Virus record (IMG/VR): IMGVR_UViG_3300021364_000081
Coordinates: 1-35,049 of that record
Length of the DNA stretch: 35,049 bases
Origin: a virus
Strand: one strand, 5' to 3'
The translations under genes were made by a program, and so were the position numbers. Below, in pieces: positions 1 to 34,276 of this stretch; within the stretch, counting starts at the first letter, position 1; each line of letters starts with the position of its first letter. The notes beneath the pieces are model-generated. The model was not told where the DNA came from and made no database searches. It worked only from the letters and a program-made list of their open reading frames with translations.

Positions 1-3000
1 TTACATCAGTTACTTCGTTGCCAGTAACAATAATATTTGCTTTTACACCAGTACCAGATCCACCAGTTAGAGGAACATCGAAGTATTGACCATTTGTAAA
101 TCCAGAACCACCAACAGAGATGATAATGTCATCAACGAAGTTACCTTGAGTGAAGGATGATTCAAAGATCATTGGAGATTCGCCACGCTCGAACTCAATG
201 ATCGTTCCAGTTGGAATTGTGCTAGTTAGTGGATTATTGAGTGAGATAGTGGTTAGACCACCAACAGTTACAACACCTGTGATATTTGTATTTGCTTGAA
301 TACCAACAACAGTAGGTTGAACTTCATGTCCGACAAGTACATCAGAGTTGGTTGTGAATACCAACTGAGAAGAACCAGAACTTGCAGAACTATAAAGTTG
401 AGCGAAGTACCTTGTTTCAGAACCTTTGATAGACTGAACTGCGAGGGCGAATGAACTGTCACCTCTTAAGAAGGTGAAGGAGTTTGCAGCGCCACTGTTT
501 GCAAGTCTGTCTGTGTTGATAGTACCAGATTGGATATCATTAGCAGAAATTTGGTTGGAAGATAGAGATACCCAGTTGTTGCTATTATCAGCAGATGTGT
601 TAACAACACGGTTGATATTAACCGTTACTGCAGGTACATCACTGCTGTCGATAGTATCAGTATCTTCAATAGCAATGTTGTTAACAATGTCACCATATAG
701 TCTGCTCTCAATCAAGCAGTTACCTGTTGCTTGAGTACCAGATCCAGCAGGAGCAGAGAAGGTAACGGTAGGAGCAGAAGTATATCCCAAACCACCCTTA
801 TAACCATTGAAAGCGATGATTGTTACAGTAACAACCTCACCATTAGCAATGGTACATTCCGCAGCTGCTGCAACAGCACCTAGACCAGGAGATCCACCAG
901 AGAAACTGACAGTTGGTGGTTGAGTATATCCAGAACCACTATCAGTAATATTGATTTGATAAACAACACCAGTTCTATACTCGGTTGCTTGAATTCTACC
1001 ACCAGAGACACTACCAGTGAAGATATCATTCAGAGTAAATTGGATTGTTGGATCAGGAGCAAATCCTAGGAACAAACTATCCAAATCATTGTTTAGAATG
1101 AAGGAGGATTGGATATCCTGTTGGATCGCAATATCACCAGCAAGTGCGCCTTCGATAGAAAGTCTCTCTGCCTGATCGGCAACAGTAAAGACTTGGAACG
1201 GACGTAGAGCAGGGATCTGATCAAGAGAGATCTTACCACTATCAGTAAGTTCAACCAGTGCTCTAGGAACTGCGTTCGTAGAGTATGGTTTGTTGATGTA
1301 AGGTCCAAGGTTGTTAGTGATGAAGTCCTTAACCGCCTTCTGAGTTGGGATCTTACTGTCAGAAGAGTTAGCACCACCAAGTGTGTTGGATGCGTCGAAA
1401 CCAGTAACAACAACGTCGCCACCCTTCAGTTTCAAGAATTCAACTTCAGAGATAGTAACAGTACCAGTAAAGGTAATAGCACCAGTTCTGTTTTCAATCT
1501 TAGCGAATGTACCAACCTTAAAGTCACCTAGTTCGTCAGTACCAGAGACATAAACACGACCATAAAGTTCAGATACTTGCTCATTTGCTTCAACCTTAGT
1601 ACCACCGTTTTCTGGTAGTGCTAGGTAGTTAGTACCAGAACCTGCGAATTCCCAGGTGTGAGAGGAGGAGTTAACAATCGATGGTCTGTGTAGTTTGATT
1701 GTTGCACCTTGCAGAGAAGATGTAGAAACTGCCTGACCAGTTGAAATGTCTGTAAGATCCATAGGATCTCCAGTACCATTATCAAATGTAAGTTGTGCAG
1801 CGAAAGGAGGACCAACAGTAACACCAGTGATTGCATCAATGAAGTATTCAATATCTTCGTTGGTGTTTCTATATCCGTCAATCTTAGCAATGTAGTGCTC
1901 AAGAGGTTCTCTACCAAGACCACTAACTGTTAGAATAGTTCTACCAGTTGGTGTAGAAGAAACGTTGGTAATAGTCGCTTGGTCAAAGCTGTAGCATTCT
2001 TCTCTATATCCATTTGCTCTAAGTGCAAATTGACCGAAGTTAGTAGCAGAGTTGGTAATAGATGCATAACCACCACTTTCACAGAAGACACCATCAGCAC
2101 AGAAGATAACGAAGACCGAAACCAACTGAGTGTAACCATCGTTGATAACCTTATAACCTGTACCACCAAAGGAGACAATCGTGAATGCCGCAGCAACCAT
2201 CGACTTACCTTGGTTCGGGAACGATGCTGTTCCGTCTAGTTCTAGACCAGGGAAAGGACAGTTAGGTTGCTTGACCTTAGAACCGTCAATTAGAGCACCG
2301 CCACCACCTAAGAAGGAGATAACAGATGCGTTCTGAGTGTATGGTGATGCTTCAATGATTGGGAAGTCATCAAAGTCGCCGCGAATAGCAACTCTCTGAT
2401 TATTTTGATCATAAGCAAAACTATCAGGATATGTTCTGATCTCAGTGGTATCGAATAGAGTACCGTAGTTATAAGTTGTAGATCCAGGTTCTGTACCATT
2501 TGTAGGATCAGTAGCATACTGAAGGATGCTGTCAAGCAGATCCATTTCAGTATCAATGGTAGCAGCAACGTTTGCACATGCAGGAGCACCACCAATAGAT
2601 GCATATGCTGCAACTGAATTGTCGTCAGTACGCTTGAATGTATGTGCAGACTGTGGAAGATGCTTGACCGAGTTTGCTAGAGAACCTTGGTATACATGAG
2701 TAGACTGTGGTTCATGCTTGATTGCATTAGCAGTAGCACTTACAAATGTATGTGCCGAAGTATCAGAAGATGTACCAACTTGAAGCGTGAAGGTTCCATC
2801 TTGACGCTTGACACTGCCTGCAGCAGCAGAAACAAATGTATGTGTAGATGTATCTCTAGGAATTGGTAGACCAGTAATCTTGAAAGTATCAGTAGTTACA
2901 TCAGAAATAGCAAACCATCTGCCACTTGCATATTCGTAATTACGTGGATATGTATGCTGAGTTACGTTGTTGTCTAGAGTGCAAGTAAATGTTAGAGCAC

Positions 3001-6000
3001 CATCATCAATTTTGATATAATCACCATTAGACCATCCATGACCTGCTAGGGTAAAAGTGATCTCTCCTAGAGCAGGATCATAATCTGCATCAGTAATAGT
3101 ATGTGATGTAGAACCAACACTTTGGATAGCAATAGACTTACCAGCAAATGGATCTTGTCCAGGACGTGGATATGTCTTAGGATCGCTAGGATCAGTTAGG
3201 CAAGTGAAGGTGAAGGAGTTGTCTTCTAGAACAACGCCACGTCCAACACCCAAACCATGCTGTCCAACTGTGACTTCCATGATACCAGTTGTTGGATCAT
3301 AGGTAGCACCTGTTGGTGTGAAATACTTGTTAGGACCAGACTTGCCTACATTTAGAGTAATTGTCGTATCTGTTCTAGATACGATTGGCATAGATCTGCC
3401 AGAGTATGGATCAATACCAGAACGAGGATAACTCTTGACTGCATCAAAGTTATCCATTGCACAGGTGAAGCTCAATGCACCGTCAGATAGAACGATGCCT
3501 TCACCAACACCCAGATTGTGTGTACCAATTGTGATGTCCAGCAAACCAGTTGCGGGATCATATGATGCACTAGTTGGTGTAAATTGCTGATCAGCAGCAG
3601 ATGCACCAACGTTTACTGTAATAGTATTTGTTGTAGTTCCAGTGATAGCAAGAGTATTGCCATATGCTGGTTGTCCAACCGCAGGTAAATAATGCTCAGA
3701 CCTGTTGCTGTCCATTGCACAGGTGAATACAAACGATTCTGGTGCAAGTCTTAATGCTTCGTTTGTAGACAATCCATGAGCAGTTGCAGTAGTGATTGTG
3801 AAATCACCGTTTGCAGGGTTGTATGTTGCGTCAGTTGGAGTGATTAGTTGTAGAGGGGCAGAACCAGGATCTACTAGGATGTTCCAATCAACAAACTTAG
3901 GAATATCAGATGTTGTATCTACAGTGTCATAGATGATGATTGTTCCATCAGTCTTTGCACTTACAAAAGAGTGAGCAGACTGTGCTGTTCCGCCAGTTGG
4001 AACTGTGCAAGTTACTGTAGTGCTACCACCAGAGGTATTTACATTTGTGATAGCATAGTCTTTACCGAAGTTAGAATCAAATCTTTCTGGAGATGCGTGA
4101 CTACCGCCACCATTGTCAGTACAACTGAAAGTTAGAGCACCTTCTGTAAATGCAATTCTGTCATTGGTAGTAGGTGCGCCCTGAGTTGGAGTTGGGAACG
4201 TTACAGTTACCGTACCATTTGCAGGATCGTATGTTGCGGTGGTTGGTGTTAGGTCAATATAGTTACCCGTTGTCCAGTTACGCATCGCAGCGGTTGCATA
4301 ACGTGCAACTTGAGTGAATGCATATCTTGTGGCACCAATCTCTCCAGCAGGAATACCAGTTAGTGCAGCACCACTGTAGTATGCCTCTGCTTGTGTTAGA
4401 ATACCAGCGTTACCACCAAGTGCCAAGTCTCTTGTTAGACCCTTGAGGATGTAACCAATATCTCTACGGCACTTTCTCTCATCAATATTGTTTAGACCTA
4501 GAGAAGGATATGCTGCAATAGCATCCTTGTATGCCTGATCTGCAATAAGATCTTTGTTCCTTGCAATCAAGTATGCAGCATCTAGATATGTTCCAGATGT
4601 GTCATTTGCAACAACATCAATGAACAAATATGTTAGTGTATTGATTGCACTTTCTACGTTTGCACAAGCAACACCAGTTTGTGGATCTGGAGCAGTAGAA
4701 GTAATTACACTATCATCAAAATATCTTGTGATGCTAGAATATACAGGAGTGTAAATTGGTTCAGTAGGAATTCTGGTTCCAGTTCTCCAGTTACACATTG
4801 CGAAGACTGCTAGTTCTCTAGCATATTCCATCGCACGAACGGTTTGAATGATCTCGTTATCTACAAGACCAATCTTTGCACCAACAATATACTTCTCACC
4901 TGCTTCAATAATGTTGTGGTTAGAACCAAATTCAAGGTCACGACATAATGCATTCAAGAAGTGAACAATATCTTGACGGCACTGATCGTCGTCTACTGGA
5001 ATACTGAAACTTGGATATAGTTTCTGACCATTAGAACATTCTACTAGAATGTTATCAAGTCTTACTGTTTCATCTTCTAAAGCAGGAATTGCAACAGCTG
5101 TAGTAATAGTTGCTTCACCAGTTACGGTGTTATCATATACAAAATTTGTAATGTTGTAAGAATTTCCACCATATGTTACTGTACCACCACTTACATAAGT
5201 ATGCTCGAAAGTGGATGCACCGAGGAATACCTTGAAAGTTTTTGCAGTGCTGTCTAGATCATAGACAGAATAGTAATACTTAGCAAACTCTGCATTTACT
5301 TTTCCTACAACTTCATCAGCAATGAAGTCTCTGTTGTTACGGATGAAAGTAACAGCATCTTGATATCTTCTATCAACAGGAGAAGAAACTGGGAATTTGT
5401 TTGGAGAGTTGAGTAGCGATAGAGTAACAGTCTTTGTATAAGACTTTGCTACTGCAAACTGACCTGGGTCATAGTTAGCATTTGTTAGAGAAGCTGCCTT
5501 CTTTGGAATAACAAATCTTCTAGAACGACCATCAGCATCTTCAATAACTTTATAAATTCTCTGCTTACCCATCAAGAATGATAGGTCAGGAGAAACAGTA
5601 GAAAGACCAGAGATTTCAATCTCTTGACCTTCTTTAAAGTTGTGAGTGTTTTGTCTACCAACTAGTTCGTTGGTGTAGAATACAATACCACCAAGATCTT
5701 CTGCGTTACCAAACTGTGCATTTTGGAAACCGCCAGTAGCAACTGCTGCTTGACCTTGCTGTGAGAAGTCAATTCTTACAATAGGTACAGTTGTAGTGAT
5801 ATCTTCATCAACAGATACAACTTCACCTTCTGCTCTGATCGACTTGAGATCGGTACTGTCAAATGTGAACTCAGTAACAGATGATGAGTAAATGTTATAT
5901 GATGTCCCAGTTCCATTTTCTGGAATTGTTGGACTATTCAGAATTGGTACAAGTAGAACATCCCAATAAGTAGGAGAGTTGTCACTATTGATAGATGCAA

Positions 6001-20854: not shown

Positions 20855-20858
20855 TGTA

Positions 20859-20862
20859 CTCC
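20859..20862 (-). promoter_or_regulatory. Ribosome-binding site of the DUF4815 gene
   Basis: GCGGAGTACA precedes the ATG at 20854, with GGAG 4 nt upstream. It is the clearest Shine-Dalgarno sequence in the window and supports this start. Confidence 0.6.
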
Positions 20863-20889
20863 GCCAAATCGCTAGTATCTAGTCCCTAG

Positions 20890-20896
20890 TATTTAG
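20890..20896 (-). promoter_or_regulatory. Putative late promoter (CTAAATA) for the DUF4815 unit
   Basis: CTAAATA on the minus strand lies just downstream of the gp8 terminator, with 35 nt between it and the ATG at 20854. The terminator-then-promoter order marks a transcription-unit boundary. Confidence 0.65.
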
Positions 20897-20903
20897 TAGA
20901 GTT

Positions 20904-20931
20904 AAAAAAAATCCCCCGAGTGATCGGGGGA
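20904..20931 (-). terminator. Rho-independent terminator after gp8
   Basis: On the minus strand an 8-bp stem (arms 20924-20931 and 20912-20919, containing CCCCCGA and TCGGGGG) with a 4-nt loop is followed by eight T (20904-20911). It starts 20 nt after the gp8 stop. The U-tract exists only in the minus orientation, so it serves gp8 transcription. Confidence 0.92.
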
Positions 20932-20951
20932 CTTAATAATATGTATTTTAA

Positions 20952-22772
20952 TCAGAATTCAATAACAAGTTTGATATCTTCAATCTGGTCAGGAGCACGA
21001 GTGATTAGTCTTCTGTTTTCAACGTAGATGATTTCACCAGAGTTATTCTTGATTTCAGCAGGTGCGAGACCAGAAGCGAAAGTAGAACCAACTAGGGAAC
21101 CATTGTAACCAGTTTGTACGCTACCAGAAGCAGTAGAACTTTCACCAGTGATTGGGTTTGCAGAAGATGCAAATGGTCTTACAACACCAGCATCGAGGTG
21201 TGCATCATTGGTTTGGATGTACTTAAGAACACCAGCGGTTGTAGAACCTGCATCTAGTGTCCAAGAAACAACTGTACCATATGCTGTACCACCAGCAACA
21301 GTCTGTTGGATCTTCTCGTCAATCGAGTAATCAGCAGTTGCACCAGTGATCTTCACTGCCTTAAGACCAGAAACTGTGTCATCAGTGATGAAGTTGGTAG
21401 AACCTTGCTCGATAGGATCAGCAATAATACCGATACGACGGAAGTCGTTATCAACAGGGAAGTCACCAGAACCTTCAGAATAGGTGAGGCGGATGTTGGT
21501 CATCACGCGCTTACCGTTGAGTTCTGTTTCATGGTCCGAACCATGACCACCTAGAGGAGGCATGATTACTTCGAGAGCACCGCTTGCACCACCTGGGGTT
21601 GCAACACCGCTGCTTAGACCAGCATCAGAGAAGAGGTTGCCGTTATCTAGAAGAACGTTACCATAGGTGTAACCCGATCCACGTGCTTGGATCGAAGCAG
21701 ATGTGATTGTACCAGAACCGTTAGTAACGAATTGTACAACACCACCAGAACCATCGCCCTTGATACCAGAGTATAGAGTTTGAGAAGCAGGAAGACCAGT
21801 ACCAGCATCTTCGATGACAACAGCATCAACTGCACCGTCAACTACCTGACCTACAACACCAATTCTGGATGCATCAGTAGGTAGAACGATTGGCATGAAG
21901 TCAGAAGAAAGGAACTTAATGACATCATCAGTTGGGATGGTGTACATATACTTCCAAACGTAACCAGCACCAGTGGTCTCAGTGTAAATACCACTTGCAG
22001 CATCATAGTTTGCTGCATCCTTGATTGGTTCTTCGGTTGCGTTTTGACCAGTAGCGTTAGAAGGATCTTCGCCGTTGAAGAGGCACTTGAAGACTTCATA
22101 TCTGGAGTTCATTACATAGAACTTCGCTTCAGAAATACTTGTTTGACCAGTAGCGGTAGACTTACCAATTGCACCACCACCAGAAGGAGTGTCAGAATAA
22201 TCAGGCTTCCACATGTCAAACTTAGGGTTGACTGCGGTGTTCCAGTTATAACGACGGACTACTGTTCTTGCAAATGCATCAGTAATACGCTTAGCAGCAA
22301 TTAGTTCGTCATAGATTGCTACCTTTTCTGTCTGGTTATCTAGAGGAAGAGGGGGAAGATCCTCAGTTGCATAACGGTAGATGCCTGCTTTTGCAGTAGC
22401 ACCTGTGTCGGATCCACCAGAACCACCTGTTGCACCAGTACGGCACTTGAGGTCAGCTGCTAGGGAAGGAGTGGAGTTAACACCGTTGCTACCAAAAACG
22501 TCGGTCAGAAGGAGGGCACTATCATAAACAGCAGCAATGGTTGCGCGGAAGGTGGTGGAACCATATGTTCCTACATACACTTCATCGCCAACGGTAAAGG
22601 ATGTCGAACCCTTTGAATAGATCTCAAGATATGCTCTCCAAGGTTGTGGACGACCCACGAAGAAATACATTCTTGTTCTTTCTGCCGAAGCAGCGGATGG
22701 TCCCTCTGTTAGAGATTCTAGGAATTGCTTCGCGTTAAAAATACGAAACTTATCAGAAATAATAGCAGCCAT
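20952..22772 (-). CDS. 8: Baseplate wedge subunit gp8 homologue, enlarged
   Basis: This 606-residue protein resembles T4 gp8, a wedge component that bridges inner and outer baseplate parts. Shared landmarks, from memory of T4 gp8, are the N-terminal SDKFR with MYFFVGRPQPW, the RRYNW segment near 165, FYVMNSRYEVFKC, GYVWKYMYTIP, NDFRRIGIIADPIEQ, and the C-terminal GEIIYVENR, ITRAPDQIEDIKLVIEF. T4 gp8 has 334 residues. The extra length comes from inserted beta material: about residues 55-120 (FTVGDEVYVG), a GxGY repeat near 310-370 (GTGLPASQTLYSG, GSGYTYGNVLL), and about 450-560 (GTAYGTVVSW). Three late-type motifs precede it and a strong terminator follows, so it appears to be its own transcription unit. 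Identity is strong; the function of the insertions is unknown. Confidence 0.9.
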   Translation of the reverse strand: MAAIISDKFRIFNAKQFLESLTEGPSAASAERTRMYFFVGRPQPWRAYLEIYSKGSTSFTVGDEVYVGTYGSTTFRATIAAVYDSALLLTDVFGSNGVNSTPSLAADLKCRTGATGGSGGSDTGATAKAGIYRYATEDLPPLPLDNQTEKVAIYDELIAAKRITDAFARTVVRRYNWNTAVNPKFDMWKPDYSDTPSGGGAIGKSTATGQTSISEAKFYVMNSRYEVFKCLFNGEDPSNATGQNATEEPIKDAANYDAASGIYTETTGAGYVWKYMYTIPTDDVIKFLSSDFMPIVLPTDASRIGVVGQVVDGAVDAVVIEDAGTGLPASQTLYSGIKGDGSGGVVQFVTNGSGTITSASIQARGSGYTYGNVLLDNGNLFSDAGLSSGVATPGGASGALEVIMPPLGGHGSDHETELNGKRVMTNIRLTYSEGSGDFPVDNDFRRIGIIADPIEQGSTNFITDDTVSGLKAVKITGATADYSIDEKIQQTVAGGTAYGTVVSWTLDAGSTTAGVLKYIQTNDAHLDAGVVRPFASSANPITGESSTASGSVQTGYNGSLVGSTFASGLAPAEIKNNSGEIIYVENRRLITRAPDQIEDIKLVIEF

Positions 22773-22808
22773 GGTGTTCTTTGTCCGACGTTATGTTTGT
22801 GCCTGAGT

Positions 22809-22822
22809 TATTTATATTTATA
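22809..22822 (-). promoter_or_regulatory. Double T4 late promoter (TATAAATATAAATA) for gp8
   Basis: Two overlapping perfect TATAAATA boxes (22815-22822 and 22809-22816) sit in the 56-nt gap between the gp7-position gene and gp8. The nearer ends 36 nt before the gp8 ATG. TATAAATA is the canonical T4 late promoter read by the gp55 sigma factor with the gp45 clamp. Confidence 0.8.
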
Positions 22823-22825
22823 CTG

Positions 22826-22832
22826 TATTTAG
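22826..22832 (-). promoter_or_regulatory. Additional CTAAATA motif overlapping the gp7-position stop codon
   Basis: CTAAATA on the minus strand overlaps the TAA stop at 22829-22831, 53 nt before the gp8 ATG. It may be a further late box or simply part of the AT-rich junction. Confidence 0.35.
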
Positions 22833-25800
22833 TCAATTGTAAATGGGATTACCTCATCGCCAGTTGATGGGAAACCATCACCTCTAACTTTAGTCACACC
22901 AGTGAATGTTGTAGCATTCTTGCCAGTGTATACAAAGACGGAGGTAGTGCCAGCATAAATTCCATTATTCACCTTAACCAAAATGTGTCCAGTAGTTGGG
23001 AAGTAATTCGTCGAATTGACATCTAACTCACCGTTGATATCAATACCACTAGTTGTGATGGTGACTGGGTTTTGGATCGAAGGAGGCATCAAGATAAACT
23101 TGGTTCCGTCTAGTGCAAACGAAGAATCTCCTCTCTCAACAAAGTCTCTAATGGAGATTGATGGGAAGTAGAAGTCAAAGTCAGCAATGGTCAAACCAGA
23201 TACACCAGCAGTACCAGAATCAAAGATACCATCACGGTGACTGATTGTAAAACCAGCGTTTGTTTTTGCGTATACACCAACAAATGCTGCAAATGCTCCA
23301 AAGATAGCGTTTACAATCTCAATTTCACTTCCACCTCTCTGTACGACAGAGTAGAGACCTTGATTATCTACAAGATCAACTAAACCATTTAGTCTTGTGG
23401 AAACTGGATCAGTAAAGAATGCAGTCTCTTCATAACCATCAACTGCACCGCCAGGTGGTAGATCGAAGAAGAATTCAGATCCTGCTTTAGTAACAGTAAG
23501 TTCTACTCTTTCTGTTACAAATTCAGAAGTCATAGACTGAACTGTAGCAACAATCGCTGTTGCATTATGCTGAAGACTGGACTGTGTAATATTTGCTTCA
23601 TCAACATCATAAACTTTCTGAGTATCAACAATAACCTCTGTAATTGTAGAAGTGCTCTGAAGTTGTACTTGTCCAACTGCTACAGTCGATGTAGATTGTA
23701 GAGTTACAACAGGAGCAACATATTGTAGTTGTCTCTGTCTATCTTGACCAGTTCCTACAGTTCCAGATGCAGCAGAGACTGCAACCAACTTGCTCTCGCT
23801 CTCAACCTGAGCAACAGCAGCAGATACTGAAGTGATAGGATCTGGGAGTTGTCTTAGGAATGTACCAGCAACCCATGCTTGAGCAGTGGTTCCTTCTTGT
23901 CCTCTCTGGACTTGGAGGAAACGATCACCAATCTTACGATAGTAGAATACAGTCTCATCACCAATCAACAGATAACCAGATGACTTGAATTTACTGGTGT
24001 CTGCAATGTAAATTACATTTTCTGTTGGATCTAGGTCAACCTGTAGATAAGCACCAGTTGTATAGTATTCAACATTAGATAGTGCATCGTTAGGAATGAT
24101 ATTCTCGAACGTTGTAACATACTTGTTAACAAACTGTACAACAGATGTACTCTTAATTGTATCTACGCTAGTAGCAAATACATTAACAAATTGTAGATGA
24201 TCCTTAGTAACCTCAACAGTTTTAACTACTGGTGCTTGTTTTGTGAACTTTTCAAATCCTACTTGAGCAAGATCATCTCCAACTTGTTCTGCTTCTGGAT
24301 ATACATGACTGATAATATCATCTGTCTCAGCATCCACAGGACTGTTCATGCTGATAGCAGCAATACCAGTAATATTGTTGAGACCTGCTACATTCTGAAC
24401 GTCAACATCAACAACAACGTTGATTTGACCATAAGGTACGACAGGATTGACACCTGCCTTAACAATAGAAACACCAATGTCTCTTTCTGTTAGGATGTCA
24501 TATCTACGTGCTACGATTACCTGAGGTGCCTTGGTATAACCAGAACCACCATCAATTAGATCAACACTGATAACTTGTCCTTTTTGTACAAGAACATTCG
24601 CTCTAGCACCGCCACCATCACCATTTAAAGGTACAAATTTAAGAACTGGTGGTGTATAATATTGGTATGCAGTAGGTTGTGTGATAGGATCATAACTACG
24701 TTGGTTCCAAACGAGGTTGGTAACAACACCATTCTCAATTTCAGCAATTACTGATAGACCCTCACCTCTGGTAATACCAACATAGTTTTCGATTTGAACA
24801 GAACCAAACATCTCATGAGATGTCTGCTTACCGTCTCTACCTTCTCTAGAAGTTGCTTTTTCTGGTAACTGTTTAATTTCACGGAATTTATCTTCGCCTT
24901 CCAAACGAACTTTATCTTTGTTTGCAAGATATACGAATGGATTTCTATAAGACTTACCAATAAATGTTCCAAACCACGATGCATTGTCATCGGTAAGTAG
25001 TTTTCTACCTAGATCATCTCTATCGAAGTTAGAAATAGTAACAGAAGTATAATCTGATGTACTGATTGTGTAAATTCTATCAGGTCTTTCTGCGACTACA
25101 AACTTAAGATCGAGACCCGCCTCTATGACTGGGTTTTGAGACTTGAGGTTCCATACAGCATCAGATCCATTCCAATAAACATTGGAAATTTCACCAAGCA
25201 CATTGTATGTTCCATTTGCTCTTTGTTGATATACATTGATAGAACTACCAACTTTATCACCCATCCAAGTGTATGAAGAATATGCATCCCAGACAGAAGA
25301 AGAAAGTCCAGTAATTGTAAAGGTAGCTCTACTAAAGTAAGCGTCAGGAGCATAATCATAGATGCTCAAGATTGATCCAACATCTCTACCAAAGAGATAT
25401 CTCATATCAATCTTCATTTCCTTCTTGATTGGATTTTTGAAGAAGATATTTGGACCAGATACAGTGTAAGAATTCCCCTCTCCCTCTTGCTGTAGTACAC
25501 CATCAAGGAAGACATAAAGGTTTTCAGGTGCTTCAATATTTTGTACCGAGTTGTCCAGTACATCCAAGATTAGGAAAGGACCACCTCTCTGATCATTGAC
25601 TAGTGCGTAATCAATAGTAAGTCTCTTATAGTTACCAACACCAAGACCGACTAGTTTCTCAACTGCGGTTGGTTCGCCAATACTCTTAGCACTAAAGTCT
25701 TGATCCCAAATTGGTGGAACATCAAACTTAATTCTGTTTGGAATAACTTCTTTATCGATGAAGTATGCATCAAACAGTGGATAGTCTTCCGTATACTTTG

Positions 25801-28800
25801 GTTTTTGTAGTACAGCATTTAGAGATAAGAACAAGTTCTCCTCTTCTTCTAATAGTACGTTTGTACCATCTTCCCAGTAGAGATCAAATTCTTTGGTTTC
25901 ACCATCAATAAAGTCAGGAAGTGTTTTGATAACTGCTTCGCGATTGATAACGTCGTCAATGTTATCATATAGTGAATTGATACCAGAGATGACATCCTCA
26001 CACTCTTGTAGAGGAATGTTTGGATCAAGAATGATATTGTAATTAGAATATGTAAGAGATCCTGTGTATGCACCAGATCTGTTAGGATTGATTGAAGTCT
26101 TAGGCACAGCACCCTTTCCATTAAGTAGAATGTCCTCAACAATTCCATAGAAATTATTCAGTGATGCTTCTACTTCAGCACATACAGGAGTTACGTTATC
26201 TATGAGAACATCAGGATCTGTGATTGGTCCTTGATTTCTCATAGCAGCAATCATTTGGTTCTTAGCATACTCAAATGTTGCTAAGGTTTCTGTCAATTCG
26301 TTGTTGACAAAATCTAACTTTTCAGATTGTGGGTACTTAGCACTTTGATAGTAGAACCTTCCAAAATCAACGACTTGCTCGTTACCACCTAACTGAAGAT
26401 GGTAAACGATGGCATCAACAAAATATCCAACATCACGCTTGCACTTAGTCTGAATATCATAAGTTCCACCAGGAGCAAAACCAGAAATAGTAAAGATTGC
26501 AAATGGTGTTAGTGCAAAATCACCTTCTTCAACAATATTGACAGCAATACATCTTCCTTCATCATCAAACTCTGCCTTTGCTGTTGGTGTAAACTGGTAA
26601 GAACCAGTAAGCCATGAGAGATTAACAACTGCTGTTTCTGGATCATGACCATAACCTGGGTTCGAGACAGTAAAAGTAGTTTTCTTTTTAACACGGCAGT
26701 TTGCGTCTAAGTCAGATACTGCATTACCACCAATACCACGAATGTAACCAATTGGAACTCCAATATTAAATTCACCAGTTTCAGTGATCCAAATATTACC
26801 AATTCTCTTACCAAGAACAATCTCTGCTTCAGCGTTACCAGCAATAGTAATTTCTTTATTGGAGTAGTTCTCTTGTTCTACATATGTCGTCTGCTCATTA
26901 ACAGTAAGTTCACGATATCTTTGACCGATGATATAACCAGTAATAGTAATACTAGTAACAGCATCACCAGTGACAACAGCAGTAGCAGTAAGACCAGACA
27001 TGTCACCACCAAGTGTGACAGTTGGTGGATTGGCAGGATCATAACCACTACCACCATTGGTGATATTGATCTGTTTGATGTAACCATTCAGTTCTAGATC
27101 AGCACTAAGTTCCCAACCAGTACCAGTCTGATTAGTTGGACTTACTACAGTGTTAGCAGCAGGGAAGACATATAATGTAGGAGCAGTTTCATAACCGTCA
27201 TTCTTGTCTTCACATAAGTATGCTGAGCTCTGATTGTTTGTAACAACTTCACCTTTTACAATTTGTACCGTACCAACATCTAGATAACGTGATACATTTA
27301 ATGTTCCTTGTGCCTGAACTCTTGTACTGGTGGGATCTTCCCAATTTAAAGAAGGATAAGCAGTCTTTGCCCAATCAACAGAAGATTGTTTAATCCATTC
27401 TTTGTTTGAATGAATTAAAGTAGAAGCATCATAGTATGTGCCGTTGTTAAGACCACTCAAGGAGAATGTTACTTGGTCGCTACCAGAGAAGGAAGTTGGA
27501 GTTGTAACAGTAACACCAGGAGGTAGTTCATAAGTATCACCAACAGGAACCTGACCAGTATTTGTAGGAACAGATCCTGTAGTTGCTGTGCCACTTAGAG
27601 AAGTGATACCAACAGGAGCACCGCCGCCACCACCAGAGTTAGCAAGTGCAGCATGACTTACTGTTATTTGAGTAGCATTGTCAATAGAAATAATCTTTGT
27701 GTCTTTAGGGAATGCTCTACCAGAACTGACATACATTCCAACAGCAACATTATCTGTAGAAGAAATCGATACAATTCTGGAACCTTGTAGATAAGATGCA
27801 GCAGTATCTGTGTAATCCCAATTTCTAGTTGCAAGTTTTGCTAGTCTTACAGCGTATGCAAAAATAGCAGAACTCTCAGTTCTGTAATTTTGAATGTATA
27901 GATACTGATCGTCTTCATCAAAGAGAGAAACATAATCAACAGTTTTGACATTACCACCAAATCTAACATCATGATCTAGTGCTTTCAGAATTGCTCTGAT
28001 GTTTTCTTGGTAATCATCAGTTTTTGTACTCCAATCTAAACCAGGGTAAGTTAGTTTTGCCCACCCAATTGTTTCCTCAATAATAAAGTCAATATTTCTT
28101 TCAATTTGATTTGCAGCGTCGATGTATCTGCCATTACGCTGGAAAATATTTCTTAACTTTTTAAAGTGTTTGTTATTATACTGATTATCCTTAAATGCAA
28201 TGTACTTCGCATAGAAAGTGACACCCTTATATTCAGACAAATCTGTTTGTGCTTCACCAGTCTGCTTAGCAGAAGGACCTAATGGTGCTTCACTAAATGT
28301 AATTTGTGTTCCACTAATAGTATAAGAAGATCCTGGTTCTTGTAAAACACCATCCAAAGTAACAATCAAATTATTTGCACTATATGGAGTAAATGCTTGA
28401 CCTAGTTCATCCAACAATGTGAATGTTTTTCTTCCAACTGTTTCAGCTCCACCTGTGTAAGAAGCACCAGTTGCATCTACACCATTTACACCATCGAATG
28501 GTTCTTGTAGTTTTACTTCAAAAGCACGTAGTTCGTTGAAGTTAAACTCAGAAGATGCTGCAGCACCAACACCTCTACGAATTCTCTGGTTCTCAATCTT
28601 CTGGACAGTTTGAGTAAGAGTTTGTTTAGTGCTCTCAATCGTAATCTTATTCTTGTTTGGATCCCATAGTTGAATGACGGAGAAGTGAGATGCCTTTGGC
28701 ATTTCTTCTGGCATTTCGGTAGAAGCAGTTCCCTCTACATCAACTTGACCAAATAGTTGGAAACCAGCAGGGTGTGTGGTAGACTTGATAAGTTCACGCC

Positions 28801-31800
28801 ACTGATTGATTGGTGTCTTAGACTTAACAACGTAAGAATAATCTTGATAGAAATAACTATCGACAATCTTCTGGTTTGATACACCCAATCTACCACGATC
28901 AGTTCTAAAGAAACCTAGGTTGTCATAGAAACTTGTAATCTGCTCTTCAAATGTAGTAACAAATACAGATTTGAGTGTAGCAGTAACTGGTGTGACATCA
29001 GTCTGGAAAGACATGTTCTGTCTGAAGATGCCAGTGATGTTTTCAACCTTGAGTAGGTTAGAACCTTTTCTCCACTCAACAACTCTTGCTCTTGCTACTT
29101 CAACATTATCAATAATCTGTTTGATGGTCTCACCCTTTCTAAATTGTCCAGTAGCATTCGTGACAACAAAGATAGAATTGGATTGGAAGGTAGAACCAAC
29201 AGTTTTGTCTAGGTGGAATGCGCCACCATTGTTAGAAACAGTGATACTCTTTGGCAAACCAATGGTCTGACTTTCTGCATATGCAGCAACATTACTTTCT
29301 ACAATCTCAATGTCAGGTGCAAAGGTGTAACCTCTACCAGGAGTTTTGACTGTGATGGAGAAGATTTGTCCTTGTCTTACAATGATGTCAAATGTTGCTC
29401 CAGCACCATCACCATTAGTAATTACAACTTTTGGATTTGAGTAGTTGGAACCTTTATTTGTAATATTAACACCAGTAATAGTTTTAGATGCGGTATCATA
29501 CAATACAGTAGCAGCACCTTTATAATCAGGTGTAGGATCTACACCTACAACAATAGGAACTTTCTTATAATTCAGTCCAAGGTTTGTGACCGCAAATCCA
29601 TTGATCTCACCAATAGAGAACTCACCAGTAGTAGTATAAGAAATGGATCCAGAACCATCCCAAAGAGGCACACTAGGTACATCGTAGACAAAACGATTAG
29701 ATGTGACATAGTTTACATTCTTAACTCCTTGTAGTGGATCAGTGATAACTTTTAGATATGCATCATCAGACTTAACAATATTCTTTCTATCATAATAGTA
29801 GAAGTTTGTGAAATCTGTTCCTACTTTTGTTTGATAATTGTTAGTAGCAAGTCTAGAACCAAATCCAAACTTAACATCTGTAAATGCGCCAGCATTACCA
29901 GGAAGTATGGTGCTAGCAGTCTTTTCTACAGTCTCAAGGTTAAAGTTCTTACTAGGTGACAAATCAAAGTAAGTCCCAGTCATAGAAGAGTGAGACGTGT
30001 CAAACTTATACTTGTAAAACTCCTGAATATCAATGTTTGGATTAGGAGTGAAAGTAGTATTATCTTCAGAGAATTCAAATTTGAATTCTAGAGGACCAGC
30101 AGAGTTTACACTAACAAGTCTTGCTGGAGTGCTGCTATCAAAGAAACTAGAAGTTTGAGCAACTTCGTTTGCTGTTAGTACAGTTGTAGTATATGGGTAT
30201 GTGATAATAATTTTCTGAGTGTCTCTGTCATATGACTGAACACGTCCAGAGTTAGCACCAGAGAAAATCTGGAAGTTAGAATTGAAATTGTATTTTGCTT
30301 TGTATAATTGTACTGGTTGATTATCGTAATGATCTTTATCAACAGTATTTTCTCTAGCTCTAACTACAGTCAAAGATCCAGATGCAACAGCAGTGACTTC
30401 CATGATTTCATCACCAACTGTAATCAAGTCACCATTTGCATAACCAATAGTGCTATCAACAAAGAGGGTAGTCTCTCCTGCTGCTAGACCTACATGGTCA
30501 ATGTACAGTGTAAGACGTTGTGTGCTAGTAGAAGCACCAGATCTCTCTAAAGTTTCATCAGCAATTCCTAGATAGTCTGCCTTAGCATATCCAGAACCTT
30601 TTGCTTGGATCGTAACACTAGTAACTCGACCAGAACTAGCAACTACAATGTTTGCAGTAGCGCCTGTACCAGATCCACCAGTCAATGCAACGTTATTATA
30701 TGTTCCTGCTGTATAGTCAGCACCAGCATTTAATAGTTGGAACCTACCAATACCAGTATCCTTAACCTCTGTGTTAACAATAGGTGCAATCAGAGTTGCT
30801 GTTTGATACAGTCTTTTTCTTAGATAATAAGTCTTAAGTTTATTTGTATCGTCTGGAGTAATTGAAATATCAACCTTATCACCAATACCAAGACCATGTG
30901 GTGCATCAGTCTCAACCAATGCTACACTTTGATTAACATCAAATGGTTCTAGATTATCACTCAAAGAGGTAAGTGTGACAATTCTAGATCCAACAGTGTT
31001 GAATAGATTACTAGAACGAATAAAGTAATCATCGTTTACTACCCAAGTTCCACTAGTAACCTTGATCTTGACTACGTTTTGCTTAGAGGTTCCTTCTAGA
31101 ACTTCACCAGTAGCAACAGGATCGCTTTGACCATCTGTAAGACTGAGGATTGCACCTTCAGTATAAGAACTGTTCTGATCTAGAAGAATAGTAAATGTTT
31201 TGATGTCAGCAGAGAACGTTCCTGTTGTATCGAATGTACCATTTACATTCTTGAGAACAATAACGTTATCACTAGCGACAGTACCAACGATTTCACCAAA
31301 AGCACCAGAAGATGGTTGTCTTAGTGTATCATCAGCAAATAGATATGCAGTTTGAATTGTAGTCAACTTGACTACTTTTCTTTCTTTTGATTCTAGGTAA
31401 GTTACACCTTTTCCTTTAACACTAGAAACTAGTGCTTCAACTTCAGAACCTTCTGTTCCTTCATTGTCAAAATATACTTTAGAGTTAACAGAGAAGTTCG
31501 CAGAAGAACTTTCAATAGCAACACTGTCAACTGTACCTGGCGATACATCAGAAATTTGACCGATGAAACCCTCGCCGTTTCTTGGCATTCCTGCCGTAAA
31601 GAACCTTCTCGCTTTCTTTGGTATTTCTAACTGACTGATATTAGAGTTGTAGTTACTGTCAACAGGTAGAGAATAGAAGTTAGCACCTAGAAGGTATGGG
31701 AATTGCGGTACTTGATTGCTATCAATAGTAATGAAATAAGCATAAGTTCCTTGCGGAAATTCTGGGGTAACACAAAATCTTCCATTGTTTTCGTCTAGAG

Positions 31801-34276
31801 AACCACTTTTGTGCGTGTACTCGTAGTCGTCAATGAATGTGCCTAATGGATACTTGTTAATAGCAGGACCGTTTGAACGAGATCCTTTAATGGCATAACT
31901 AGAAGACATTCTTCTAATTGCAGAAGTAGCATCTAGTGGATTGAGATAACCAAACGGACCATAGATTGGATTGCCATCATAAGCAAAACCAATGATTGGA
32001 GAGTGAGTTTTAGTTGCTGGTTCTGTTCCAGCAGAATTGAGGTTGTCGTTTAGAGCAACACGCAATGCTTTTGGGTTTCCAAGATAACCATAACCATACT
32101 CTAGGACAGGGTTATAGTTTTGGAAGATGTAACCATTTTCTGTATCTAATTGTGCTTCATTCTTTTTGTATCTGTTAAAGTTCCATTCCTTAAGTTCAGG
32201 AATACCTGTTGCACCTTCACCAACAGGAATGATATCAACAATTACAGTATCTTGATTATAGAAGTTGCCTTCATCAATTTTTTCAAATCCAGTGATCTCA
32301 CCATCACCACTTACAACAGCATTGTAAGTAGCAAATCTACCACGACCAGCATTATCTCTAATTCTTACAACAGGTGGTGAAGAATAATATTCACCAGGAT
32401 TGTCAATCTGTAAACTAGTAACTTTACCACCAGTTACAATAGCACGCACTTCTGCTCTTCTACCAGATGTAATTGTAATCTCTGGAGTGATTGGGTAGAT
32501 GTCATTAGTATCAACGATGATGCTTTCTACAACCTGACCAGCAAGAACTGCTCTTGCTTTGTTAGGAACTTGATCAACCAATACAAAAGGTGGTTTTGCA
32601 TAACCTCTACCTTGAGTATTGACACTAATTCTTTCTAGAACACCAAATCTGATGCTCTCTGTATCTCTGTAACTGTAAGTACGAACACCATTCAGTAGAA
32701 TACCAGTATCTGCTTTTGGTGTTTTGTATCTTTCGGTTGTAGTTGTTGCTTGCTTTCTAATAATACGAAGAATATCTTGATCTAGAAGTTCTTCAGTAAT
32801 ATTACTAGTACCATCTAGGATCTTGTGTGATGGATAACTAGACGATGTGATATAATAGTATTGATCATCCTCGTGAATAGAGGTAACATCTGTTGGGATA
32901 CCTCTGAGACCCGTTGCTATGACTGGGTTTGTAGGGGCGCTAACGTTTCTGCCCTGACTGAGCAACCAGCGAGTTTCATTAGTTCCTACTTTTACAATTC
33001 TAGGATCTGCAGTTTCAAATCCAGGTTTTGATACTTGGATCTTGTCGCCAACGTTAGAATATGGTTTACTGTCTGCAGTATCTAGGTTGTATACAACACC
33101 TAGGGTCAATAGACTGACTCCAGTACCACTTACAGTTACTGGTTTGTATACGTTTGTTCCTCTTGGGTGTGAAATAGCAGTAGACGCCTGTCTATCTCTG
33201 ATAATAAACTGAGTTGCACTCCTCTTAATAAAGGTAATGGTCTCTGTTCCAATCAGAATAGAACCTTCAGCATCCCAACCAATAGCAGAGAAGACATCAA
33301 CTCTATCTCCAGTGCTAGCAGTGCCAGGTAAATCTTTGGTTAGTTCAGTCTTAGTAGAGATGAAGAATTCACCATTGACTGTTTCTGGTGCTAGGACAAT
33401 ATTCCATACTGGTTCACCATCTCTAGTGCCATCAGAATATACGTTGTCTACTACAGCAGAAGCATAACCATACTCTGCAGTTGCTTGCTGTACAATCTGT
33501 TTACCGATTAACGCTTTTGGATCTCCAGATACAACAGAGCACTTAAGTGCATATACATTGATCCAGTCTGCATTAGAAGACTTGTATGTGTAATCTTTTG
33601 GTTTGTATACTTCAGGTTTGTTGTTGACATCCTGTGCAACAATCGTGTTGAAGATAAACTTGATAGAACTATTAGTTCCTTTTGCCTTATAGAACTTTTG
33701 GATGTTCTTGATAAGGGTTCTCTTATCGATCTCACCCTTGAGATACTTCTCAGGGAATGATCCGAGGTATTGTGCCTCAAAATTCTTGACTAACGCATAG
33801 AGGAATAAGTTACTTACGTTATGTACTACAGCACCACTAGAATGGGTTGCTGCCTCTGTGCTTTCAAATTTGGATGCTTCGTATAGATCACCTAGGGAAG
33901 TGTTGCCGCTGACGCCCCTAGAGCAGTCTCTGAACTCAGTATTAGTCCTGGTAGCATAGAAGATGATCTCGTCATCAATTCTGATGTAACCATTTTTCTT
34001 TGGGAATGACTGTGCATCCTCTACAGTAATAGTTGTTGCATCAATAGCAACGTCTGCTGTTAACTTATCATTCTGCTTGAGAAGATTTTTCTCGTAGTAA
34101 TCAATGTCAGCATACTTTTGAATGTTATTAATAACATCCAATGTGCCACCTTGCACTTCCTGTGCTTCGTAATACTTCTGTACAAACTTACTGAAGAGTT
34201 CGTATTCAGATGTAATAAAAGCAGGAAGCTGCGATTCGATCAGAGTGGAAATTCTCTTAGTCTTTACAGCAGGCAT
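22829..34276 (-). CDS. Giant gp7-position baseplate wedge protein with YHYH domain, 3815 residues
   Basis: The N-terminus (MPAVKTKRISTLIESQLPAF, then FSKFVQKYYEAQE and NIQKFYKAKGTNSSIKFIFN) is a conserved start I recall from large cyanomyovirus baseplate proteins. A first DDEI module lies near 78-125 (RIDDEIIFYATR); others lie near 1265-1300, 3430-3475 and 3745-3810. A YHYH-family domain is at about 740-870 (H758, then GFAYDGNPIYGPFGY, NNGRFC, TPEFPQGTYAYF). GxGY beta repeats recur. Helical modules start at D2053 and D2283; the second is split by about 300 residues and resumes at C2612. A Gly-rich linker lies near 2215. A Q/S/T-rich region (LQSTSTVAVGQVQLQSTST) is near 3540. The stop of gp6 is 5 nt upstream, so they are co-transcribed. 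T4 gp7 is 1032 residues and initiates the wedge; equivalence here rests on position between gp6 and gp8. Confidence 0.85.
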   Translation of the reverse strand: MPAVKTKRISTLIESQLPAFITSEYELFSKFVQKYYEAQEVQGGTLDVINNIQKYADIDYYEKNLLKQNDKLTADVAIDATTITVEDAQSFPKKNGYIRIDDEIIFYATRTNTEFRDCSRGVSGNTSLGDLYEASKFESTEAATHSSGAVVHNVSNLFLYALVKNFEAQYLGSFPEKYLKGEIDKRTLIKNIQKFYKAKGTNSSIKFIFNTIVAQDVNNKPEVYKPKDYTYKSSNADWINVYALKCSVVSGDPKALIGKQIVQQATAEYGYASAVVDNVYSDGTRDGEPVWNIVLAPETVNGEFFISTKTELTKDLPGTASTGDRVDVFSAIGWDAEGSILIGTETITFIKRSATQFIIRDRQASTAISHPRGTNVYKPVTVSGTGVSLLTLGVVYNLDTADSKPYSNVGDKIQVSKPGFETADPRIVKVGTNETRWLLSQGRNVSAPTNPVIATGLRGIPTDVTSIHEDDQYYYITSSSYPSHKILDGTSNITEELLDQDILRIIRKQATTTTERYKTPKADTGILLNGVRTYSYRDTESIRFGVLERISVNTQGRGYAKPPFVLVDQVPNKARAVLAGQVVESIIVDTNDIYPITPEITITSGRRAEVRAIVTGGKVTSLQIDNPGEYYSSPPVVRIRDNAGRGRFATYNAVVSGDGEITGFEKIDEGNFYNQDTVIVDIIPVGEGATGIPELKEWNFNRYKKNEAQLDTENGYIFQNYNPVLEYGYGYLGNPKALRVALNDNLNSAGTEPATKTHSPIIGFAYDGNPIYGPFGYLNPLDATSAIRRMSSSYAIKGSRSNGPAINKYPLGTFIDDYEYTHKSGSLDENNGRFCVTPEFPQGTYAYFITIDSNQVPQFPYLLGANFYSLPVDSNYNSNISQLEIPKKARRFFTAGMPRNGEGFIGQISDVSPGTVDSVAIESSSANFSVNSKVYFDNEGTEGSEVEALVSSVKGKGVTYLESKERKVVKLTTIQTAYLFADDTLRQPSSGAFGEIVGTVASDNVIVLKNVNGTFDTTGTFSADIKTFTILLDQNSSYTEGAILSLTDGQSDPVATGEVLEGTSKQNVVKIKVTSGTWVVNDDYFIRSSNLFNTVGSRIVTLTSLSDNLEPFDVNQSVALVETDAPHGLGIGDKVDISITPDDTNKLKTYYLRKRLYQTATLIAPIVNTEVKDTGIGRFQLLNAGADYTAGTYNNVALTGGSGTGATANIVVASSGRVTSVTIQAKGSGYAKADYLGIADETLERSGASTSTQRLTLYIDHVGLAAGETTLFVDSTIGYANGDLITVGDEIMEVTAVASGSLTVVRARENTVDKDHYDNQPVQLYKAKYNFNSNFQIFSGANSGRVQSYDRDTQKIIITYPYTTTVLTANEVAQTSSFFDSSTPARLVSVNSAGPLEFKFEFSEDNTTFTPNPNIDIQEFYKYKFDTSHSSMTGTYFDLSPSKNFNLETVEKTASTILPGNAGAFTDVKFGFGSRLATNNYQTKVGTDFTNFYYYDRKNIVKSDDAYLKVITDPLQGVKNVNYVTSNRFVYDVPSVPLWDGSGSISYTTTGEFSIGEINGFAVTNLGLNYKKVPIVVGVDPTPDYKGAATVLYDTASKTITGVNITNKGSNYSNPKVVITNGDGAGATFDIIVRQGQIFSITVKTPGRGYTFAPDIEIVESNVAAYAESQTIGLPKSITVSNNGGAFHLDKTVGSTFQSNSIFVVTNATGQFRKGETIKQIIDNVEVARARVVEWRKGSNLLKVENITGIFRQNMSFQTDVTPVTATLKSVFVTTFEEQITSFYDNLGFFRTDRGRLGVSNQKIVDSYFYQDYSYVVKSKTPINQWRELIKSTTHPAGFQLFGQVDVEGTASTEMPEEMPKASHFSVIQLWDPNKNKITIESTKQTLTQTVQKIENQRIRRGVGAAASSEFNFNELRAFEVKLQEPFDGVNGVDATGASYTGGAETVGRKTFTLLDELGQAFTPYSANNLIVTLDGVLQEPGSSYTISGTQITFSEAPLGPSAKQTGEAQTDLSEYKGVTFYAKYIAFKDNQYNNKHFKKLRNIFQRNGRYIDAANQIERNIDFIIEETIGWAKLTYPGLDWSTKTDDYQENIRAILKALDHDVRFGGNVKTVDYVSLFDEDDQYLYIQNYRTESSAIFAYAVRLAKLATRNWDYTDTAASYLQGSRIVSISSTDNVAVGMYVSSGRAFPKDTKIISIDNATQITVSHAALANSGGGGGAPVGITSLSGTATTGSVPTNTGQVPVGDTYELPPGVTVTTPTSFSGSDQVTFSLSGLNNGTYYDASTLIHSNKEWIKQSSVDWAKTAYPSLNWEDPTSTRVQAQGTLNVSRYLDVGTVQIVKGEVVTNNQSSAYLCEDKNDGYETAPTLYVFPAANTVVSPTNQTGTGWELSADLELNGYIKQINITNGGSGYDPANPPTVTLGGDMSGLTATAVVTGDAVTSITITGYIIGQRYRELTVNEQTTYVEQENYSNKEITIAGNAEAEIVLGKRIGNIWITETGEFNIGVPIGYIRGIGGNAVSDLDANCRVKKKTTFTVSNPGYGHDPETAVVNLSWLTGSYQFTPTAKAEFDDEGRCIAVNIVEEGDFALTPFAIFTISGFAPGGTYDIQTKCKRDVGYFVDAIVYHLQLGGNEQVVDFGRFYYQSAKYPQSEKLDFVNNELTETLATFEYAKNQMIAAMRNQGPITDPDVLIDNVTPVCAEVEASLNNFYGIVEDILLNGKGAVPKTSINPNRSGAYTGSLTYSNYNIILDPNIPLQECEDVISGINSLYDNIDDVINREAVIKTLPDFIDGETKEFDLYWEDGTNVLLEEEENLFLSLNAVLQKPKYTEDYPLFDAYFIDKEVIPNRIKFDVPPIWDQDFSAKSIGEPTAVEKLVGLGVGNYKRLTIDYALVNDQRGGPFLILDVLDNSVQNIEAPENLYVFLDGVLQQEGEGNSYTVSGPNIFFKNPIKKEMKIDMRYLFGRDVGSILSIYDYAPDAYFSRATFTITGLSSSVWDAYSSYTWMGDKVGSSINVYQQRANGTYNVLGEISNVYWNGSDAVWNLKSQNPVIEAGLDLKFVVAERPDRIYTISTSDYTSVTISNFDRDDLGRKLLTDDNASWFGTFIGKSYRNPFVYLANKDKVRLEGEDKFREIKQLPEKATSREGRDGKQTSHEMFGSVQIENYVGITRGEGLSVIAEIENGVVTNLVWNQRSYDPITQPTAYQYYTPPVLKFVPLNGDGGGARANVLVQKGQVISVDLIDGGSGYTKAPQVIVARRYDILTERDIGVSIVKAGVNPVVPYGQINVVVDVDVQNVAGLNNITGIAAISMNSPVDAETDDIISHVYPEAEQVGDDLAQVGFEKFTKQAPVVKTVEVTKDHLQFVNVFATSVDTIKSTSVVQFVNKYVTTFENIIPNDALSNVEYYTTGAYLQVDLDPTENVIYIADTSKFKSSGYLLIGDETVFYYRKIGDRFLQVQRGQEGTTAQAWVAGTFLRQLPDPITSVSAAVAQVESESKLVAVSAASGTVGTGQDRQRQLQYVAPVVTLQSTSTVAVGQVQLQSTSTITEVIVDTQKVYDVDEANITQSSLQHNATAIVATVQSMTSEFVTERVELTVTKAGSEFFFDLPPGGAVDGYEETAFFTDPVSTRLNGLVDLVDNQGLYSVVQRGGSEIEIVNAIFGAFAAFVGVYAKTNAGFTISHRDGIFDSGTAGVSGLTIADFDFYFPSISIRDFVERGDSSFALDGTKFILMPPSIQNPVTITTSGIDINGELDVNSTNYFPTTGHILVKVNNGIYAGTTSVFVYTGKNATTFTGVTKVRGDGFPSTGDEVIPFTID
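26230..28120 (-). repeat. Two copies of the helical module in the gp7-position protein, the second split
   Basis: Copy 1 starts at D2053 (DAANQIERNIDFIIEETIGW) and runs through YPGLDW to ILKALDHDVRFGGN ending at N2109. Copy 2 starts at D2283 (DASTLIHSNKEWIKQSSVDW) and reaches YPSLNW (W2312). About 300 residues of GxGY-type beta sequence follow before KCKRDVGYFVDAIVYHLQLG at C2612. It ends with FEYAKNQMIAAMRN. Confidence 0.75.
31690..32060 (-). other. YHYH-family domain within the gp7-position protein
   Basis: About residues 740-862 contain GFAYDGNPIYGPFGY, LDENNGRFC, TPEFPQGTYAYFITID and FPYLLG, the landmarks of YHYH domains. The eponymous YHYH is YAYF here. The family is usually a stand-alone or secreted bacterial domain of unknown function and also occurs in marine phage structural proteins. 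Confidence 0.7.

Follow-up and report, generated by a model that had tools for sequence, protein, structure and literature searches.

A phycobiliprotein-like module as the probable structural scaffold of giant baseplate and tail-fibre proteins in marine cyanophages

Four helical modules in two giant genes

The window analysed here, an IMG/VR virus record, is 35,049 bases long. Its seven minus-strand genes include the end of gp6, a giant of 3815 aa in the gp7 position (P0001) and gp8, and the rest of the window holds two further large structural genes, a 166-aa gene and a tail-fibre giant of 2569 aa that is incomplete at the left edge (P0002). By gene order comparison the window agrees with the marine cyanophages S-WAM2, ACG-2014e, Syn1 and S-RSM4. 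The giants occupy the slot between gp6 and gp8 and the downstream tail-fibre position, as do the baseplate and tail giants of the Kyanoviridae. The order gp25-gp6-giant-gp8, common to the named cyanophages, relates P0001 to T4 gp7, to the PHROG baseplate wedge and to the cyanophage "virion structural" giants (phrog_4406 and phrog_5342, entries without any domain identity). Unlike the cyanophage giants, T4 does not have the module described below. Given their annotation as structural proteins, the module-bearing giants are presumably part of the virion. P0001 also carries a YHYH domain (residues 698-857, PF14240, E 4e-32). In S-B43 (MN018232.1, 124319-137726) the gp7-position giant is broken into parts of 2162 and 1392 aa on opposite strands; the 1392-aa part starts within the same module and looks inverted or misassembled.

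An earlier sequence-only reading had proposed that four copies of one helical module occur in two giant genes. Our profile of 107 positions, grown from one whole copy, recovered exactly these four in P0001 and P0002, two of them split, with domain E-values of 7e-10 to 4e-37. The N-halves of the split copies are significant by themselves (7e-10 and 1e-10). The best match to the same ORFs reversed was 0.084, and the profile found no further copy in any other window ORF of at least 150 aa. The features are as follows.

27818..28132, minus strand: copy 1, whole, P0001 2049-2153 (profile match 110 bits)
27338..27442, minus strand: copy 2 N-half, helices A-B, P0001 2279-2313, ending YPSLNWE (35 bits, profile positions 1-45)
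26453..27337, minus strand: copy 2 insert in the helix B-E loop, ~295 residues, beta-rich, P0001 2314-2608 (orthologues exist without it)
26234..26452, minus strand: copy 2 C-half, P0001 2609-2681, with KCKRD at the Cys84/Asp87 position (68 bits, profile positions 39-106)
26441-26443, minus strand: codon of Cys2612 of copy 2
26114..26188, minus strand: copy 2 helix H, the last helix, P0001 2697-2721, PVCAEV with Cys2699 at the Cys153 position (helix-H profile E 4e-9)
5273..5368, minus strand: copy 3 N-half in the tail-fibre giant, P0002 781-812 (profile match 39 bits)
5021..5272, minus strand: copy 3 beta insert in the B-E loop, P0002 813-896 (net 90 residues against the profile; strands at 44-130 of the AF2 fragment)
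4787..5020, minus strand: copy 3 C-half, P0002 897-974, QCRQD with Cys910 (profile match 81 bits)
4619..4672, minus strand: copy 3 helix H, P0002 1013-1030, VACANV with Cys1015 (helix-H profile E 5.9e-11; model helix 248-265)
4274..4594, minus strand: copy 4, B-E loop whole, P0002 1039-1145, KCRRD with Cys1080 (profile match 122 bits)
2585..4273, minus strand: copy 4 G-H loop insert, ~560 residues, five ~80-aa beta-repeat units found by the unit profile, P0002 1146-1708
2516..2584, minus strand: copy 4 helix H, P0002 1709-1731, PACANV with Cys1711 (helix-H profile E 2e-6)

In the profile search the N-half of copy 2 reaches P0001 2279-2323, the two parts of copy 3 span P0002 about 781-834 and 891-974, and the distance from copy 4 to its helix H is 564. 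The landmarks reported earlier for copy 2 are exact, with YPSLNW ending at W2312 and C2612 lying within KCKRD. The span given for the module in P0001, 26230-28120, widens to 26114-28132 when it takes in copy 1 and all of copy 2, last helix included. Similarly, an uninterrupted copy does exist in the left-edge giant, at residues 1039-1145 rather than 1043-1147. The split copy of that giant, our copy 3, was said to hold about 90 foreign residues slightly earlier in the module. The net insert is indeed 90 residues, and it starts before the YPSL-like motif, which recurs on the C-half side (LYPSFSIPV, residue 897). In the tail-fibre giants of S-WAM2 (864-942 of a 3226-aa ORF) and S-PM2 (858-976 of a 3340-aa ORF), two or three extra copies of the N-half only (helices A-B) lie in tandem ahead of the full module, and similar partial matches occur in several other records.

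Relationship to the phycobiliproteins

The first hint of identity in the window is a sub-threshold Pfam match to Phycobilisome (E 0.086 and 0.16), for which two copies score 13.2 and 12.4 bits against a PF00502 gathering cut-off of 22.2. Against 177,635 PDB sequences, copy 4 as a single query places phycobiliproteins at ranks 1-14 of 26 (best E 0.0018). With a profile of 24 diverse copies the best 60 of 149 matches are phycobiliproteins or their derivatives (best E 3.3e-6). Of these 24 copies, 11 give a PF00502 match at E<=1 (best 4.8e-5). In a search of 22 phage records, 18 match PF00502 at E<=0.1, eight of them above the curated cut-off and all within giant ORFs. The 22 comprise a first set, in which all 14 of 14 cyanophage records matched and eight exceeded the cut-off, and a second set with four matches in eight, those without a match being T4, HTVC008M, P-SSM2 and S-SKS1. 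Profile-profile comparison with hhalign gives a probability of 97.8 for host alpha chains and 24 for host beta chains alone. The motifs DAxNxIxxN and KCxRD are shared in register; outside helices A, B and E the sequence similarity is not strong. Among the phage copies themselves, 23 have 28-41% identity to the first.

Judged by these sequence comparisons, the helical module is homologous to the phycobiliproteins, an identity absent from the sequence-only reading. We found no description of this domain in the phage literature that was searched. In view of the PDB sequence searches and the structural alignments, we reject an unknown, novel helical fold.

The predicted models have a globin-like fold with helices A, B, E, F, G and H. 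The AF2 model of copies 3 and 4 (pLDDT 78.8, pTM 0.76, with pLDDT below 50 in the first 10 residues) places the beta insert between two helical stretches. When it is compared with solved structures, 50 of the 50 matches listed are phycobiliproteins (Z 13.7-15.4, 138-160 residues aligned), and the aligned region starts in the N-half, spans the insert and ends in the last helix, over ranges such as 3..266. The fragment model of copies 1 and 2 is poor (mean pLDDT 57, pTM 0.39), with the ~295-residue insert itself unmodelled. For copy 2 with its insert, the 50 matches listed are again all phycobiliproteins or phycobilisome chains (Z 13.2-14.7), and the alignment takes in both halves, over ranges such as 242..685. 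Thus, in the models, the split halves of copy 2 and of copy 3 each align across the insert onto one solved domain, which answers the earlier question of whether the halves pack together. In a viral library there are 20 matches at E<=0.001, and those named by organism are Synechococcus phages or uncultured phages.

Helical bundles can reach middling structural scores by chance, and plain Foldseek against the PDB gave no match at E<=0.001 (best 0.045, the top three rows being phycoerythrin). Both points would suit a convergent likeness, with the split representing two unrelated half-domains. However, independent sequence searches rank phycobiliproteins at the top without structural input, the two motifs are shared in register, and every phage match is confined to cyanophages. 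We therefore consider convergence very improbable.

By tblastn with the consensus, 406 of 50,697 phage records match, and the names of all 406 are Synechococcus, Cyanophage, Prochlorococcus or, in one case, Marine virus. The profile finds modules in 22 of the 27 records examined and none in P-SSM2, S-SSM7, S-SM2, pelagiphage HTVC008M or T4. The restriction to viruses of cyanobacteria is a host tie that we count towards the likeness. In a module tree 30 of 30 phage copies fall on one side with full support, subject to a long-branch warning and to some mis-sorted host alpha and beta labels. A genome scan with a single-protein query, which carries little weight, found no cellular relative of the module.

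The module has the same helix order and modelled fold as phycocyanin, phycoerythrin and allophycocyanin (PF00502), and the DAxNxIxxN, YP, KCxRD and helix-H Cys motifs align. It differs from them in being part of giant structural proteins thousands of residues long, where it occurs as tandem and split copies with large beta inserts. It starts at helix A, the N-terminal helices X-Y of phycobiliproteins not being seen, and its models have ~10-17% identity to solved chains in structural alignment. The phycobilisome core-membrane linker ApcE likewise has a phycobiliprotein-type domain in a large protein, though it is a host photosynthetic protein and has no phage-type beta-repeat arrays. Engineered proteins derived from phycobiliproteins, such as smURFP, show the fold outside light harvesting, but they are man-made and are only weak matches in the PDB. 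The PB-loop of ApcE has a mechanical job, membrane anchoring, according to PMC11006782.

Inter-helix loops as insertion sites

Copy 2 was described as cut by beta repeats. The insert is beta-rich and shows weak similarity to beta repeats at other places in the giants of the same phage (P0001, P0002 and P0004; E 5e-3 to 2e-7 with composition correction off). A single profile joins the split halves, the N-half matching positions 1-45 and the C-half 37-106. Of 42 related contigs gathered by a match to the neighbouring copy 1, 36 have an uninterrupted copy 2 and three a split one; in one the contig end cuts its N-half, and in two it is lost to truncation. A separate search with copy 2 gave a fourth contig with a split copy, and the insert is thus present in the window and four other contigs. 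The alignment gap is exact to the residue, opening after the W of PSLNW and closing just ahead of KC. Because orthologues carry copy 2 uninterrupted, we regard its split as a real insertion. The insert is confined to the window and its close relatives, as might be expected of an assembly chimera. Yet the four other contigs come from other samples and hold it in frame, at the same residue and with 59-99% identity. These independent contigs rule out a chimera, to which we give virtually no weight.

The tail-fibre giant shows the same behaviour on a larger scale. We compared 71 tail-fibre giants chosen for a split first copy, a sample that includes near-identical contigs and is not fully independent. 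The extra length in the B-E loop is 89-98 residues in 36 of them, 509-519 in 33 and 934 in two. The short (~90), ~515 and ~934-residue forms contain 0, 4 and 8 beta units of ~80 aa, respectively, all integer numbers. In both the short and the long forms, a conserved beta domain of ~67 residues adjoins the C-half, and so the long forms add units beside this domain. Since 36 of the 71 have no long array, no fixed arm is required. In S-WAM2 and S-PM2 the tail-fibre copy is uninterrupted, with zero beta units. The inter-helix loop is thus a recurrent insertion site, as had been suspected, with orthologues that lack an insert and inserts of several sizes. There is also a second insertion site, absent from the sequence-only reading, namely the loop that links helix G of the following copy to its last helix. 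It is filled with the same ~80-aa unit, with 0 to 12 units across the fibre proteins and five in the window.

Taking these results together, we favor a phycobiliprotein-like domain of globin fold that was captured, duplicated in giant baseplate and tail-fibre proteins and used there as a structural scaffold, a reading we hold to be very likely. The fold would have been captured from a cyanobacterial host, probably long ago; we infer both this direction and a single capture event. Duplication would then have taken place inside the baseplate (gp7-position) and tail-fibre giants of marine cyanophages. As a compact helical scaffold, the module would let the chain exit at the helix B-E loop, or at the second site, the G-H loop, to make beta-rich domains or arrays of ~80-aa units and then return to complete the same helical domain. 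Gain, loss or lengthening of arms would in this way leave the helical core undisturbed. Because the ~295-residue insert is modelled with low confidence, we put forward only conditionally the earlier suggestion that beta domains project from the module. Potentially, the arms extend from the virion and serve host contact or reach.

These findings give a name and a fold to domains whose annotation, across hundreds of cyanophage records, is merely "structural" or "tail fiber". They show the reuse of a photosynthetic antenna fold in phage structural proteins, and loops that are repeated landing sites for beta-repeat arms offer a concrete route by which tail proteins could grow and diversify.

Bilin-attachment positions and the CpeT lyase

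The Cys of CxRD aligns with Cys84, which is Cys82 in the numbering of beta-phycocyanin; the start of DAxNxIxxN corresponds to Asp39 and Asn47. The CANV Cys of the last helix falls on Cys153; this is the least secure match, its register resting on an hhalign stretch without confidence and on matching helix-H ends in the model. According to PMC6614406, the bilins of beta-phycocyanin are attached to Cys82 and Cys153, and one bilin is contacted by Asp39.

Conservation at these positions is high. Cys84 and Asp87 are present in three of the four window copies (not copy 1), and in non-redundant copies the two positions are kept in 35/39 and 37/41, respectively. The Asp39 position is kept in 29/31 copies. 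Where helix H can be seen, the Cys153 position is retained in 146/149 copies; in the window, a Cys lies in helix H of copies 2, 3 and 4. In clustered copies Asp87 accompanies Cys84 in 46/46 and is found in 4/10 without it (Fisher p 6e-6, on the assumption of independent clusters, which holds only partly). Retention of Cys84 likewise goes with that of Arg86 and Tyr72. In the same clustered copies Asn13, Asp5, Ile17, Gly61, Asn62, Ala103 and Asp56 show no such link. In P-SSM4, a Prochlorococcus phage, the Cys84 position is lost in all three scored modules, and P-HM1 keeps it in 5/5.

One explanation is that the fold is purely structural and that disulfides, either inside the domain or linking subunits outside the cell, account for the retained cysteines. 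The medium around a virion is oxidising. A cysteine at position 84 is frequently accompanied by one at position 153 (both in 32 of 56 clustered copies, with no helix H seen in 21), and two P-SSM4 copies have neither cysteine. Against this, three clustered copies have the helix-H Cys but not Cys84, and a P-RSM4 copy keeps Cys84 although its following helix has no Cys. The joint loss of Asp87 and Arg86 with Cys84 would also go unexplained by a disulfide, and the two bilin sites of phycocyanin are far apart. We consider disulfides a minority explanation, somewhat doubtful but deserving attention.

Alternatively, the modules may be functional bilin-binding phycobiliproteins, with a linear tetrapyrrole put on Cys84 and/or Cys153 by phage or host lyases, a reading compatible with the scaffold. 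A pigmented baseplate and tail fibres could then act in light sensing, photoprotection, stabilisation or contact with the host antenna. The conservation of Cys84, Asp87, Cys153 and Asp39 is in keeping with this, as is the co-retention of Cys84 and Asp87 where most structural columns have no such link. So is the T-type lyase CpeT (PF06206), present in 19 of 22 module-bearing records and in 0 of 5 without modules. T-type lyases serve Cys153, according to PMC10452541. Eight records have a third module-bearing giant with a full-length CpeT gene 1.0-4.1 kb upstream; in S-WAM2 and Syn1 this giant is annotated as a short tail fibre protein. In the other 11 CpeT records the lyase gene lies tens of kb away.

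Several observations weigh against bilin binding. In copy 1 of the gp7-position giant, DYQEN replaces CxRD, and position C42 is Y or F, never Cys, in 46/46 distinct orthologues. Only some copies retain Arg86. Tyr72 is lost along with Cys84, and the co-loss may thus not be limited to bilin contacts. No S-type lyase was found in the 27 records. S-B43 and S-SKS1 keep both cysteines in their modules without CpeT. In a gp23 tree the CpeT-free P-SSM2, S-SSM7, S-SM2, S-B43 and S-SKS1 form one clade, and the CpeT-module link may therefore be one event. In this tree the longest-ORF rule very likely took wrong ORFs for S-SZBM1 and S-WAM1, and those two rows are uninformative. Cargo genes commonly insert in tRNA regions, which also counts against a CpeT link. 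P-SSM2 and S-SSM7 have no module by profile despite carrying pebS and ho1 (Table 3 of PMC3037559). Strict coupling of the module to phage bilin synthesis is rejected by these two phages, and strict coupling to CpeT by S-B43 and S-SKS1.

On balance, bilin binding seems unlikely. We view with equal reserve the fuller proposal that cyanophage virions are pigmented, bilins being attached to baseplate and tail-fibre domains by the phage's own CpeT or that of the host. If it were true, the phage CpeT lyase would modify the phage's own particle and not the host antenna. PMC3037559 calls the purpose of cyanophage bilin genes a mystery, and one idea about it, a bilin on the phage's own proteins, becomes testable here.

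P-SSM7 gave no CpeT at E<=0.001 in our search and is listed in Table 3 of PMC3037559; Syn1 CpeT shows the reverse mismatch with the same table. Between CpeT and the third giant, S-WAM2 (17190-33280) has only tRNAs and two HNH genes, and across S-WAM2 and Syn1 this interval holds tRNAs and HNH or 2OG-oxygenase genes.
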